In this document: piece after piece, positions 41,853 to 51,920 of the stretch
How the letters are laid out: each line of letters starts with the position of its first letter
How positions within the stretch are numbered: the first letter of the stretch is position 1
NCBI GenBank assembly: GCA_004322015.1
Contig: SCQT01000268.1
Location: forward strand, 1 to 57,398
Direction: 5' to 3'
DNA from: Chitinophagaceae bacterium
Lineage (GTDB): Bacteria; Bacteroidota; Bacteroidia; Chitinophagales; Chitinophagaceae
DNA: 57,398 nt
The notes under the pieces: model-generated
Database searches by the model: none
Seen by the model: the letters and a program-made list of their open reading frames with translations, nothing else
What the model was told of the DNA's origin: nothing
Position numbers and translations under genes: made by a program

Positions 41853-42905
41853 TCAATCCCCCTTGGCTGCTGCTAAGGTAAAACCAAAAGTAGAGCCTAC
41901 CTCAGGTTTGCTTCGCACATTGATGGTTTGTCCGTGTGCCTCTACAATATGCTTCACAATTGCCAACCCGAGCCCGGTGCCTCCTTCCGAACGGCTTCGC
42001 GCCTTATCGGTCCGGTAAAAACGTTCAAAAATCCTGGATAAATGATCTTCAGCAATTCCAATGCCATCATCTGATAATTCGACAAGCACCTTTTTACCCT
42101 CCATTTTATATACACTGGCAATGATATGCCCGTTTTGTTTGCCATATTTAATGGAATTATCAAACAAATTGAGCAGCACCTGACGGATTTTTTCTTTATC
42201 CGCCACGACGGATATCGGTGCCTCACACCCTCTTTTAATAGAAAAGGAAATATTTTTCAGGTCTGCTTTCATTGAAAGCGCATCAAAAGCATCCCGGATC
42301 AGATCCTGGATAACGAAAATATTAGTTACCACAGGCATCTCGCCGCTTTCCAATCGTGATATTTCATCCAGATCGTCTATCAGGCGGCAAAGACGATCTA
42401 CATTTTTTGAAGTTTTACTTAAAAACAGACCGCGAAGTTCTTTATCCTCCATAGCTCCGTCCAGCAACGTATGCACATATCCCTGGATGACAAAAACAGG
42501 AGTCTTCAGCTCATGGGATAAATTCAGAAGAAATTCTTTCCGGAATTCCTCATTCCTTTTCATGTTTTCTAGTTCATCTCTTTTCTCAATAGCCCATTGC
42601 TGTACATCCTCTTCCACTTCCTCGAGGCTTTTCTGCGGTAAAATCCGGCGATTGAAAAAATCTTCTTTCCTGGTGGCTTTGGTTTGAGAAATAAATTTAT
42701 AAATCAATTTGATCTTACGGTTGATAAATTGCTTTACCACACTATGAATGACAAAATAAGCAAGTACAAATACCACTATGAAAGTGACAATAAAACTGAT
42801 CCAGTTATCTTTCAGCAACAGGCTTCCGACACTGACTATAAAGGCCAGTATAACAGCGGTAAATGCCGCTAATGCCGGTGGAGAAGTATTTTTATTTCCA
42901 AACAT
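41853..42905 (-). CDS. PhoR-like membrane histidine kinase
   Basis: A 350-residue kinase. The ATG at 42905 (MFGNKNTSPP) is preferred: it is followed at once by two membrane helices, whereas the longer reading from 42989 adds an unlike 28-residue leader. The transmembrane region (about 15-70) is followed by a HAMP-like linker, the HisKA site H131 in LSHELKTPVF, N box NLFDNSIKYGK, and G boxes DDGIGIAE and GGTGLGLAI. It has no adjacent response regulator; the orphan PhoB-like regulator at 51243 is a candidate partner. It lies just upstream of the phosphate-transport pair. Confidence 0.88.
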   Translation of the reverse strand: MFGNKNTSPPALAAFTAVILAFIVSVGSLLLKDNWISFIVTFIVVFVLAYFVIHSVVKQFINRKIKLIYKFISQTKATRKEDFFNRRILPQKSLEEVEEDVQQWAIEKRDELENMKRNEEFRKEFLLNLSHELKTPVFVIQGYVHTLLDGAMEDKELRGLFLSKTSKNVDRLCRLIDDLDEISRLESGEMPVVTNIFVIQDLIRDAFDALSMKADLKNISFSIKRGCEAPISVVADKEKIRQVLLNLFDNSIKYGKQNGHIIASVYKMEGKKVLVELSDDGIGIAEDHLSRIFERFYRTDKARSRSEGGTGLGLAIVKHIVEAHGQTINVRSKPEVGSTFGFTLAAAKGD

Positions 42906-43009
42906 TTCAACAGTATGTGTAAGGTCTAAAATGAAACTTCTTTGACCTGATTGATGTACATATTTAATATCTCCGGCAAATACCCTCAACCAGGGTGGTG
43001 CAATTGTAT

Positions 43010-48840: not shown

Positions 48841-51093
48841 TCACTCGTCTTCCGTTTCAATTTTAGCTCCTTTCATCAGCTTTTTATAAGCCTTGATAAA
48901 AATAGCGCCCATGTTTTTTTGCGGCGGAATATAATCCTGAAAATAATCGTAGAATTCGGGAGAGTTTTTAAAATAATTATTGAGCTGATTCCATATCTTC
49001 TCCCATTTAAGATCATTTCCTATCCTGATCTGGTCCTCTATTGTCCTGATAATCGGATCATTGACCAACATGGAACCGGTCTGCTTGGAGGAAATGATTT
49101 GGGCGTTAGGGGAGATATTCAACACCTGGGCCAGTGTATTGTACCCCCCGCAAGAGCCTAAAAACACTAATTCGGCAGAAGGTTGAAGTTCTTTAAGAGT
49201 TGCATCAACATGATAGCTGTGCCCGCGATGGATGAACACAGTTGGATGGATGCTATTTTTTGTGAGATATTCCTGCAAAACAGTCATTGCTTTTTCATCC
49301 TCATCGGGGTCTGAAATAGGCTTTTTTACAAATAAGGTAACCGGCCTCCCTTTGGTTGAAGTAATGGTTAAAAAATATTTATTGATATCGTTTACCCGCC
49401 AGTCCCCGTTTTGAAAGGTGGGCATAAAATGGGCGTATGAATCAAAACCGTCTTTGTCACCGTAAAAAAATACTTCTTCATAAACCCGTCCTGCGCTGTC
49501 ATTGATTAAGTTTTTAAAAGGCAGATAATCTATGGGCGGAAGATCAAATTTCTGTGACATGGTTTTTGCCCATACTTCGTCCTGGTCAGAGCTTTCGCGG
49601 GTATTGAAGAGAGTTGAAAGCAGGCCGTAAAGCACTTTCCCCCTTTCATCGTTCTGGGCTACCATTTCCTCAAAATTCCGGTTTACTTCAGCCTGAAGCT
49701 TTTTGAGTAATGCCGAATCTTTGATACTGCCAAAGGCATCCGCCACATCTACCGATGCAGCAAGCCCCTTGGTATATTGTAATCCGTCCACAAATTTATT
49801 CATCAGCACGTTAGCGTTTTGTTGGCTCATGGAACCGAGAAACGGATCCAGTGTATTATAAGCGGAAGAAAGCGTGATGAATTTACGGAAACGGTCAAAT
49901 ATGACAGACATTAGGAGTTTATCCCCGCGGGGCGGATCCATACGCTGCATAAAACGTTTAAAAAGACCCACAAAGCTGGAAGTGTAAATCTCCTGTTGTC
50001 CATTGACCAGGATGTAATAAATTTCCTGCGGAGTCAGCTTGTTGGCACAGGCGAACCTGACCGGATCAGGGCTCTCGTGCAGTTCATTGACCTGCCTTAT
50101 ATATTCCAGGGCGCTTCTTTTCACACTTGCTTCCATAGCAGGTTGTCCCACAAAATCTTCTCCGTCTATGATGCCTCTGTTCATGTCAATCAGCGTATTG
50201 ACAGCTAATAAATAATAGGCATCATCATCCTGAGCGATCTTCTGCAATTGCGGAACGGTGTATTTTCCACTGACAATATAATCAATAAAAGGAAAAACAC
50301 GAATGGCCTTATCCGGTGTGGCGCCTACTTTCACAATCGCCTGCACCAGGGGATCGGAATTACGGCGAACCACCCTGCCCACCATAGTATAGGATGTGGC
50401 ATAGTTATAGACCAATTCCGGATAAGCATGTGCTATCCTGGCGACGACAGTGTCTACGAATGGCTCATTAGCCAGATCAGGGTAGGACTGGTTTAATACT
50501 GTCAGAAAAGATTTAGGATACTGCGCTGCATATTTCCTTAATAAGGCAATACGTGCTTCCTGGTACCCGTAATTTTGACTGAACACGTTGATATTGATAG
50601 CGCCTATTTCATAAGGAACCTTTTTGACGAAAGGGGCTATACTTCCTCCCTGTCTGTCGGCATTCAGCATTTCATGAAAATTCGTCACCAACTCAGGGAT
50701 AAGCGCCGGGCTCAGGTCGCCATTGCCCCACTCACGATTCATGATCTTCAGCATTACATAAATGCTGTTCAGGTATAGAACCTTATGACGGTGATCAAGA
50801 TCAGAAGCTTCAATGGCTAAGCGGTAATTATCTATATCTCTCTTTAAAACATCTTTAATTTGCACGTACCCGGCAGGGGGATCATCAGAACCCTGATTAT
50901 GCCGATTCAGTTTCTCCGCCATGCCCAATGCCTTGGATTGTTCTTGTGATATCAGATCGTGCCAGTATTGCAAATAAATAGGAATAATTACCCCGCTGGT
51001 ATCCTGCTGTGCAGCAGCATAGGAGGAAGAAGCAGTGATCAACAGGGAGCAACTTATGGCTGCAAGAAAACAAATAAAACGGGCTTTTTTCAT
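48841..51093 (-). CDS. Large exported protein with a caspase-like (clan CD) dyad candidate
   Basis: About 750 residues, with the start at ATG 51093 (MKKARFICFLAA) or 51105 four codons earlier; both give a signal peptide ending SYAAAQ. The first 550 residues are helical and repeat-like with no domain I recognise. The C-terminal quarter (numbered from 51105) has the hallmarks of the caspase/gingipain/CHAT fold: TVFIHRGHSY with H626/H629 at the end of one hydrophobic strand, then AELVFLGSCGGYN with C652 after the next, 23-26 residues later. This matches the His-Cys order and spacing of clan CD cysteine peptidases. A periplasmic or surface protease is inferred, not proven. The end is basic (AYKKLMKGAK) with an acidic ETEDE tip. 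Confidence 0.7.
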   Translation of the reverse strand: MKKARFICFLAAISCSLLITASSSYAAAQQDTSGVIIPIYLQYWHDLISQEQSKALGMAEKLNRHNQGSDDPPAGYVQIKDVLKRDIDNYRLAIEASDLDHRHKVLYLNSIYVMLKIMNREWGNGDLSPALIPELVTNFHEMLNADRQGGSIAPFVKKVPYEIGAININVFSQNYGYQEARIALLRKYAAQYPKSFLTVLNQSYPDLANEPFVDTVVARIAHAYPELVYNYATSYTMVGRVVRRNSDPLVQAIVKVGATPDKAIRVFPFIDYIVSGKYTVPQLQKIAQDDDAYYLLAVNTLIDMNRGIIDGEDFVGQPAMEASVKRSALEYIRQVNELHESPDPVRFACANKLTPQEIYYILVNGQQEIYTSSFVGLFKRFMQRMDPPRGDKLLMSVIFDRFRKFITLSSAYNTLDPFLGSMSQQNANVLMNKFVDGLQYTKGLAASVDVADAFGSIKDSALLKKLQAEVNRNFEEMVAQNDERGKVLYGLLSTLFNTRESSDQDEVWAKTMSQKFDLPPIDYLPFKNLINDSAGRVYEEVFFYGDKDGFDSYAHFMPTFQNGDWRVNDINKYFLTITSTKGRPVTLFVKKPISDPDEDEKAMTVLQEYLTKNSIHPTVFIHRGHSYHVDATLKELQPSAELVFLGSCGGYNTLAQVLNISPNAQIISSKQTGSMLVNDPIIRTIEDQIRIGNDLKWEKIWNQLNNYFKNSPEFYDYFQDYIPPQKNMGAIFIKAYKKLMKGAKIETEDE

Positions 51094-51214
51094 GGATGCT
51101 GACATTTTTTACTCTGATGCAAATTTATGACCAAATTTTAAACCTTGGCTTTACAAAGGTGCCCAAATTGACAATTTAATCATGTTAACCTATGGTTAGG
51201 ATTAATTAACTTGC

Positions 51215-51222
51215 TATTTTTG
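51215..51222 (+). promoter_or_regulatory. -7 box of the PhoB-like regulator
   Basis: TATTTTTG at 51215-51222 is an exact TAnnTTTG match, 20 bp before the ATG at 51243; the -33 element is not clear. Confidence 0.5.
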
Positions 51223-51242
51223 CGAAATCACAGCCTTTGCCG

Positions 51243-51920
51243 ATGATGAATGAAAAAAAATATAAGATATTGATCGTGGATGATGAGGAGGATATTGTGG
51301 AGATCATCCGTTATAATTTGCAGCAGGCGGGCTATGAAACAGAGGCTGCCGGTAACGGAGAAGAAGCTTTACTGAAAGCTAAATCATTTCATCCCGATCT
51401 GATCATACTTGATATCATGATGCCGGTAAAAGACGGGGCCGAAACATTAGCGTCCCTGCGTAAGGATGAGGCATTTAAAAATACCTTAATCCTGTTTCTT
51501 ACCGCATTAGGTACGGAAAGCGCGGAGATCAACGGGCTCAATCTGGGGGCAGACGATTATGTGGTAAAACCGGTTAAACCCCAGATCCTTTTAAGCAGGA
51601 TCAAAGCATTATTACGCAGGGTCAATAAAGAGGAAGAAAAGACAGTTACATTGGGAGATCTTACCATAAACAGAGAAAGGTTCATCGTCCATTACAAAGG
51701 GCGTGAAGTGATATTGGCGAAAAAAGAATTTGAGTTGCTGGCATTACTTGCTTCGAAACCCGGACGCGTTTTCCTGAGAAATGAGATATTAAGTGAAGTC
51801 TGGGGTACCGATATTATTGTGGGCGACCGGACCATTGATGTCCATATACGCAAAATAAGGCAGAAAACCGGCGATATTATTGCCACGGTAAAAGGAGTGG
51901 GATACAGGTTAGATGTTTGA
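51243..51920 (+). CDS. PhoB-like OmpR-family response regulator, orphan
   Basis: A 225-residue regulator. The start is ATG 51243 (or 51246); a TTG at 51237 was rejected. Receiver with D13/D14, phospho-acceptor D57 in LIILDIMMPVKDG and a Lys in DYVVKPVKP; winged-helix domain with RIKALLRRV linker, EFELLALLASKPGRVFLRNEIL and VKGVGYRLDV. No kinase is adjacent. The PhoR-like kinase at 41853 is the nearest unpaired kinase, so this may be its partner, split by about 8 kb; that is inference. Confidence 0.92.
   Translation: MMNEKKYKILIVDDEEDIVEIIRYNLQQAGYETEAAGNGEEALLKAKSFHPDLIILDIMMPVKDGAETLASLRKDEAFKNTLILFLTALGTESAEINGLNLGADDYVVKPVKPQILLSRIKALLRRVNKEEEKTVTLGDLTINRERFIVHYKGREVILAKKEFELLALLASKPGRVFLRNEILSEVWGTDIIVGDRTIDVHIRKIRQKTGDIIATVKGVGYRLDV

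Follow-up and report, generated by a model that had tools for sequence, protein, structure and literature searches.

An exported protein family of Bacteroidota with a near-invariant His/Cys pair and a candidate caspase-type peptidase domain

The window, the whole stretch of 57,398 bp of Chitinophagaceae DNA analysed here (GenBank contig SCQT01000268.1), includes a leftwards-transcribed gene whose product had been singled out in a first-pass annotation for its HRGHS (H626, H629) and GSCGG (C652) segments. The reading frame and both segments are confirmed, with 26 and 23 residues between C652 and H626 and H629, respectively (Table 1). The protein had also been described as exported, and by eye its N-terminus does look like a Sec signal peptide; a crude test finds a hydrophobic N-terminal stretch in 130 of 160 family members, and a lipobox-like motif is present in four of the 160. 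Conservation is strongest toward the C-terminus, where mean column identity is 54% (residues 525–754, alignment A2) as against 38% for the whole protein (alignment A1). The gene and the divergently transcribed PhoB-like regulator are separated by a short interval (window 51106–51236) that would be a natural place for a regulator site, and many relatives keep this arrangement. Promoter and terminator scans of the locus gave no more than was seen in shuffled sequences, and an Rfam search found nothing there.

Table 1. Features of the gene, its product and its regulatory neighbours, in window coordinates.
Feature	Coordinates	Strand	Basis
Gene of the 754-aa exported protein	48841..51105	(-)	ORF and translation from ATG; stop codon included
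Predicted Sec signal peptide, residues about 1–31	51013..51105	(-)	Read from the sequence by eye
N-terminal region, residues 32–535, probably helical	49501..51012	(-)	Weak PDB profile matches to designed helical proteins
C-terminal domain, residues 536–754, presumed caspase-like	48844..49500	(-)	Best conserved part; element order in two low-confidence models
D550-K-D552, end of predicted strand 1	49450..49458	(-)	Both Asp 192/192
H626-R-G-H629-S630, end of predicted strand 3; H629 is the presumed catalytic His	49216..49230	(-)	Near-invariance in 192 C-terminal domains
G650-S-C652-G-G654, end of predicted strand 4; C652 is the presumed nucleophile	49144..49158	(-)	G650, C652 and G653 192/192
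PhoB-like response regulator, divergent, conserved neighbour	51237..51920	(+)	Pfam Response_reg and Trans_reg_C
Kinase orthologous to the PhoR-like one found beside the gene in relatives; separated from it here by about 6 kb	41853..42989	(-)	HisKA and HATPase_c

The first-pass annotation recognised no family for this protein, and an accepted match is likewise absent from Pfam, NCBIfam, PADLOC, PHROGs and the PDB. Pfam gives no match to the window protein at E ≤ 10, and across 45 members at E ≤ 0.01 there are only three stray matches, each to a single member. Nothing in NCBIfam is above cut-off (CmeU, at E 0.03, scores 14.8 bits where 80 would be needed), PADLOC does not match the window protein, and PHROGs offers just one unnamed family (E 0.33). 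The PDB yields a single match by sequence (E 0.62) and no chain at E ≤ 10 with the C-terminal profile; the whole-protein profile matches designed helical proteins weakly (best E 0.0019) and in the N-terminal part only. A search of viral contigs gave nothing usable, and among phages there is one short match (E 0.9). In the open-licence PMC literature we found no paper on the family under the topics of CHAT or caspase, Chitinophagaceae or Chitinophagales, secreted Bacteroidetes, signature proteins, or periplasmic clan CD. By these comparisons the exported proteins, with their near-invariant His/Cys pair, make up a family that is real and hitherto undescribed.

Within the window's own GTDB family, 283 of 294 genomes have a match (242 of the 249 good assemblies), as do 99 of the 101 genera; we take the family to be Chitinophagaceae because the nearest relative (L001), of the same genus as the window, is labelled as such. 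In a sample of the whole phylum 14 of 395 genomes match, all 14 of them in the window's own family, and the C-terminal profile finds 15 in the same sample, the fifteenth of which we take to be a chance match. This out-of-family match (L062 in genome G396; E 0.0012) was rejected, and the stretch around it has no fitting open frame. Sampling at the level of the order gives 79 matching genomes of 198, of which 34 belong to the window's own family and the other 45 are spread over seven sister families (f58, f62, f64, f71, f72, f73 and f75). The first-pass annotation had suggested a Bacteroidota family, and as sampled the protein is restricted to one order within that phylum. The only matches found beyond Bacteroidota are four Azospirillum plasmid records, the other phyla being covered just by a scan for close relatives; this genome-contig scan needs exact peptide patterns of the query and so reaches close relatives only, and it gave one. 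Two Azospirillum copies (L032 and L033) are 631 and 738 residues long with 19–20% identity. Their plasmids are predicted to be non-mobilizable and one copy adjoins ISAs1 transposases, and these occurrences are sporadic and far from Bacteroidota.

Conservation of the motif residues was scored in two sets. The first contains 160 distinct members, including the window protein and a few partial sequences; the second contains 192 aligned C-terminal domains, these being the first set less one truncated row together with 33 copies from sister families. In the first set H629, C652, R627, G628, S630, G650, G653, D550, D552 and W569 are present in all 160 sequences and H626 in 159. In the second, C652, D550, D552, R627, G628, S630, G650 and G653 are invariant, H626 is present in 191 and H629 in 189, and the H629–C652 spacing is 23 in every one of the 192 domains. 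Homologues lacking conservation of H629 and C652 had been named at the outset as what would speak against the proposal; C652 is kept throughout, and H629 is missing only from three long paralogues, each in tandem with a short copy that is intact. Of the positions that reach at least 98.5% conservation in the 160-sequence set, C652 is the sole Cys, the only His are H343, H626 and H629, and none lies C-terminal to C652, a pattern that fits a His-then-Cys dyad. One could suppose that an ordinary structural protein has come by the motif fortuitously, given that no family library searched recognises it, and this is contradicted by the conservation and constant spacing in 192 sequences; the motif is more than chance, and we regard coincidence as extremely improbable.

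Two AlphaFold models, from runs confined to the window protein and one truncated relative and with mean pLDDT of 50.1 and 49.0, share an element order of strand, helix, strand, strand, strand, helix, strand (ending at H626–H629), helix, strand (ending at C652), helix and strand. Both place H629 at the end of strand 3 and C652 at the end of strand 4, and the early description of a dyad with the His first and the two residues on consecutive strands is upheld to the extent that these low-confidence models predict them. The CHF core of clan CD, as the excerpted text of PMC4357240 gives it, has parallel strands in the order 2-1-3-4 and helices 1–3, and the predicted order is compatible with this caspase/haemoglobinase core plus an extra hairpin strand. 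Models of such low confidence do not prove a fold. When they were used as Foldseek queries, the 50 matches listed were for the most part small GTPases and further alpha/beta proteins, none at E ≤ 0.001. We give this result no weight, and the absence of caspases among those 50 matches proves nothing.

Profile comparison used clan CD profiles built from Bacteroidota genomes, with 30 sequences for CHAT, 30 for C25, 25 for C14 and 8 for C11. With hhalign and a 159-row family profile set against 60 column shuffles, z is 3.8 for C11, 3.2 for CHAT, 2.3 for C14 and 0.7 for C25, and −0.4 to 1.6 for nine unrelated families, and the best local alignments with C11, CHAT and C14 each put C652 on the catalytic Cys. 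The clan CD scores (24.0, 21.8 and 20.8) overlap those of controls, two unrelated families giving 23.9 and 23.1 with the reversed query, and for one unrelated family (ctl8), as for C14, only one of the 60 shuffles did as well or better. A 44-row profile gives clan CD scores (22.8, 19.9, 19.3 and 16.9) that are not above controls of up to 21.4, and a 192-row profile gives 22.9 for C11, 21.8 for CHAT, 20.2 for C14 and 18.2 for C25 against at most 20.0 in nine unrelated families. Known clan CD families often miss each other in this test, and the comparison is suggestive of a clan CD relation.

Coevolution was examined by mean-field analysis of 159 and of 192 sequences and by pseudolikelihood with the 192, using random segment pairs as the null and thirty pairings per run. 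Parallel pairing of strands 1 and 3 appears in all three runs (p 0.021, 0.015 and 0.034), as does the antiparallel hairpin of strand 2 (p 0.046, 0.028 and 0.014); strands 3 and 4 reach p 0.079 at best, in one run only. Two further signals are not predicted by a caspase order, namely an antiparallel pairing of strands 4 and 5 (p 0.004) and a pairing of strand 3 with the latter half of the strand 2 hairpin (p 0.003, one run). An initial set of ladder statistics was overstated through taking the best of several registers, and a fairer null leaves only the parallel pair of strands 1 and 3 and the antiparallel strand 2 hairpin in both mean-field runs. With thirty pairings per run we count coevolution as supporting evidence only. 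The C-terminal domain is thus likely to be a cysteine peptidase of caspase type, a reading favoured by the order of the residues together with profile and coevolution signals that are both weak.

The same residues could be put together differently. The conserved DxD, HxxH and Cys at neighbouring strand ends might be a metal site, or the site of some other hydrolase, in a Rossmann-like alpha/beta fold that is not a caspase fold, with C652 as a ligand or a non-peptide nucleophile. H626 and H629 stand in an i,i+3 relationship, and H626, D550, D552 and C652 survive where H629 is lost, both of which agree with this arrangement, as do the generic alpha/beta proteins matched by the weak models and the failure of the clan CD profiles to rise above all controls. 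The alignment of C652 with the catalytic Cys of C11, CHAT and C14 tells against it, and the invariance of R627, G628 and S630 around the His is that expected of a catalytic loop. In alpha/beta-hydrolases, GATases and papain-type enzymes the catalytic His comes after the Cys in sequence order. Readings of GSCGG as an alpha/beta-hydrolase, a class I GATase or a papain-type enzyme were set aside, there being no conserved His after C652. A metal or alternative hydrolase site seems to us unlikely.

The gene had been described as standing alone with no partner gene, and this is correct for the present genome only; it fails in the window's own family, where PhoB/PhoR-like genes are common neighbours, and in the sister families, where a second, tandem copy is usual. 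Among 45 loci, which are the best-scoring in the own-family and phylum searches and not a random draw, 33 have a PhoB-like regulator, always from a single orthologous group, within about 1.5 kb and 28 have a PhoR-like kinase, the two Azospirillum loci (L032 and L033) being among those without the pair. Both genes are present in 15 of 20 stretches with about 6 kb of flank (from genomes that overlap the 45 loci), and in 12 of the 20 the regulator is adjacent and divergent, as it is in the window, once with one small ORF between. The window kinase scores 621.8 bits with the kinase profile, but it was one of that profile's rows. On the other flank an ABC exporter is kept in 13 of the 20 family stretches and an ATP synthase a-subunit gene in 12 (named by Pfam in L066), and with this shared flank some of the linkage to the regulator may reflect no more than synteny. 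In L065–L071, L075, L079–L081 and L083 the gene is followed by those for the ABC exporter and ATP synthase, an order that is absent from the window.

A second gene order is found in the sister families. In two loci (L312 and L323) the regulator, the kinase, a long copy of the gene and a short copy lie in that order on one strand, with one extra gene after the kinase in L312. The L323 genes form an apparent four-gene operon (L323:4034-11152) with gaps of 66 and 86 bases, and, with the earliest candidate start codon, the long and short copies overlap by 11. Two other loci (L325 and L326) have the kinase without the regulator. With the kinase profile the sister kinases score 335–375 bits and another of the window's kinases 113. 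The regulators of the sister loci reach 324–328 bits, compared with 138. The two-component link is present in only four of the 20 sister stretches. It is the recurrence of the PhoB/PhoR-like pair in this second order that argues for a functional link.

Tandem copies are the rule in the sister families, with two or more matches in 41 of the 45 matching genomes. From 18 of these 45 we collected 33 members in 20 stretches, 18 of them short (672–774 aa) and 15 long (931–1155 aa), and a long copy is followed directly by a short copy in 13 of the 20. The N-terminal profile matches each long copy twice or more, the first match having E < 1e-6 in eight of the 15 and < 1e-3 in 10 and being not significant in five, and from these repeated matches at least most of the long copies appear to carry a duplicated N-terminal region. 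The three copies lacking H629 are long paralogues from two families (L312, L318 and L321), with Tyr in its place once and Leu twice; each retains H626, C652, D550 and D552 and is directly beside an intact short copy, and these are possible pseudoenzyme/enzyme pairs. Such pairs, together with the linkage to PhoB/PhoR-like genes and the pseudo-orthocaspases known from the excerpt of PMC6426788, lend something to the idea that the whole family is a non-catalytic envelope scaffold or sensor, which would have a caspase-fold enzyme as its ancestor and would use binding to signal to the two-component system. The retention of both H629 and C652 in all 160 members of the first set, including the two divergent Azospirillum copies, is hard to explain without chemistry, and we consider this scaffold role quite improbable.

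Taking the sequences and the low-confidence models together, an exported caspase-type cysteine peptidase of CHAT/separase-like kind is the best reading, and one that we hold to be probable. The protein would be an exported, probably periplasmic, cysteine hydrolase, and the most likely fold of its C-terminal domain is an alpha/beta one of the caspase/haemoglobinase type, close to those of CHAT and separase. In this enzyme H629 at the end of strand 3 would activate C652 at the end of strand 4 for cutting of a peptide bond, and the long, probably helical N-terminal part may recruit substrates or keep the enzyme inactive. D550 and D552 at the end of strand 1 might receive P1 residues that are basic, or coordinate a metal ion, for example Ca2+. 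Two families with cleavage after Arg hold P1 by means of an Asp on helix 1 (RgpB Asp163 and MALT1 Asp365, in the excerpted part of PMC4357240), and the basic P1 site is a guess from the position of D550/D552 near this place in the predicted order; the sequence DxDG is the source of the alternative guess of a Ca2+ site. From the gene linkage we propose a PhoB/PhoR-like two-component system as partner and, with it, a role for the peptidase in regulated proteolysis in the cell envelope. A broader proposal, which is speculative and on balance doubtful, is that of an envelope 'separase-like' peptidase family, a core protein of Chitinophagaceae serving as effector or input of the PhoB/PhoR-like system, and in which the two copies of the sister families act as a tandem pair, the long one, with its duplicated N-terminal region and in places without the catalytic His, regulating the short one.

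Clan CD peptidases have roles in cell death, chromosome separation, toxin activation and CRISPR-triggered proteolysis. If the peptidase reading is right, an exported and near-universal family linked to two-component genes would make caspase-type proteolysis in envelope signalling tractable in bacteria, and would suggest a function for a near-core gene left nameless by every library model searched.

Clan CD is defined by a His/Cys dyad with the His first (as excerpted from PMC4357240), and the first-pass annotation had claimed both the order and the spacing of this clan for the window protein. The order stands; the spacing does not, 23 residues being shorter than in any of the Bacteroidota sets of C25 (34–38), CHAT (40–52) and C14 (42–63) that we measured. 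A Gly beside the catalytic His is present as G628 before H629 in all 192 domains, but the residue after it is S630, and the excerpt of PMC4357240 does not fix the side. The gingipain/PorU family (C25, PF01364) is a clan CD family common in Bacteroidota (31 of 41 genomes sampled), and it differs from the present proteins in giving no profile signal, in having a GHG and a TC segment (each in 30 of 30) that are absent here, and in having no family-model match to the window protein or the 45 members. The window's own genome (G000) has no C25, CHAT, C14 or C11 match at E ≤ 0.001. Caspases and orthocaspases (C14, PF00656) resemble the family in the profile signal and the alignment of C652 with the catalytic Cys, and differ from it in having HG in 25 of 25 sequences rather than HS, in the longer spacing, and in the lack of a family-model match to the window protein or the 45 members. 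Clostripain (C11, PF03415) gives the strongest profile signal, from a profile of only eight sequences, and strand 4, the following helix and strand 5 align with C652 on the catalytic Cys, whereas its family model matches neither the window protein nor any of the 45 members.

Separase (C50) has a His–Cys spacing of about 26; it is eukaryotic and cytosolic, whereas the family here is bacterial and exported. Its largely helical N-terminus followed by a C-terminal caspase-like domain, as described in the excerpted text of PMC4626109, resembles the layout presumed here. CHAT proteins (PF12770; e.g. TPR-CHAT/Csx29 and HetF) differ from the present family in their longer spacing, in the export seen here, in the absence of a PF12770 match to the window protein, to any protein of its genome or to the 45 members (E ≤ 0.01), and in that no TPR match was found in those members at E ≤ 0.01. 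CHAT also has similarities to the family. It too is the C-terminal domain of a larger protein (about 850–1400 aa for most of the frames compared), and it has two His in the strand-3 loop (HFATH compared with HRGH); in 29 of 30 CHAT sequences the catalytic His is preceded by the other at a distance of no more than four residues, and here the other is at −3. The residue after the catalytic His is always Gly in C25 and C14 and is variable in CHAT (G 13, A 6, S 5, V 4 and T 2 of 30), that before the Cys is A in 19, S in seven and G in four of the 30 CHAT sequences, and the CHAT consensus LV.LSAC can be set beside IV.LGSC here. At the level of sequence, HRGHS...GSC is closer to what CHAT domains show than to the pattern of either C14 or C25.
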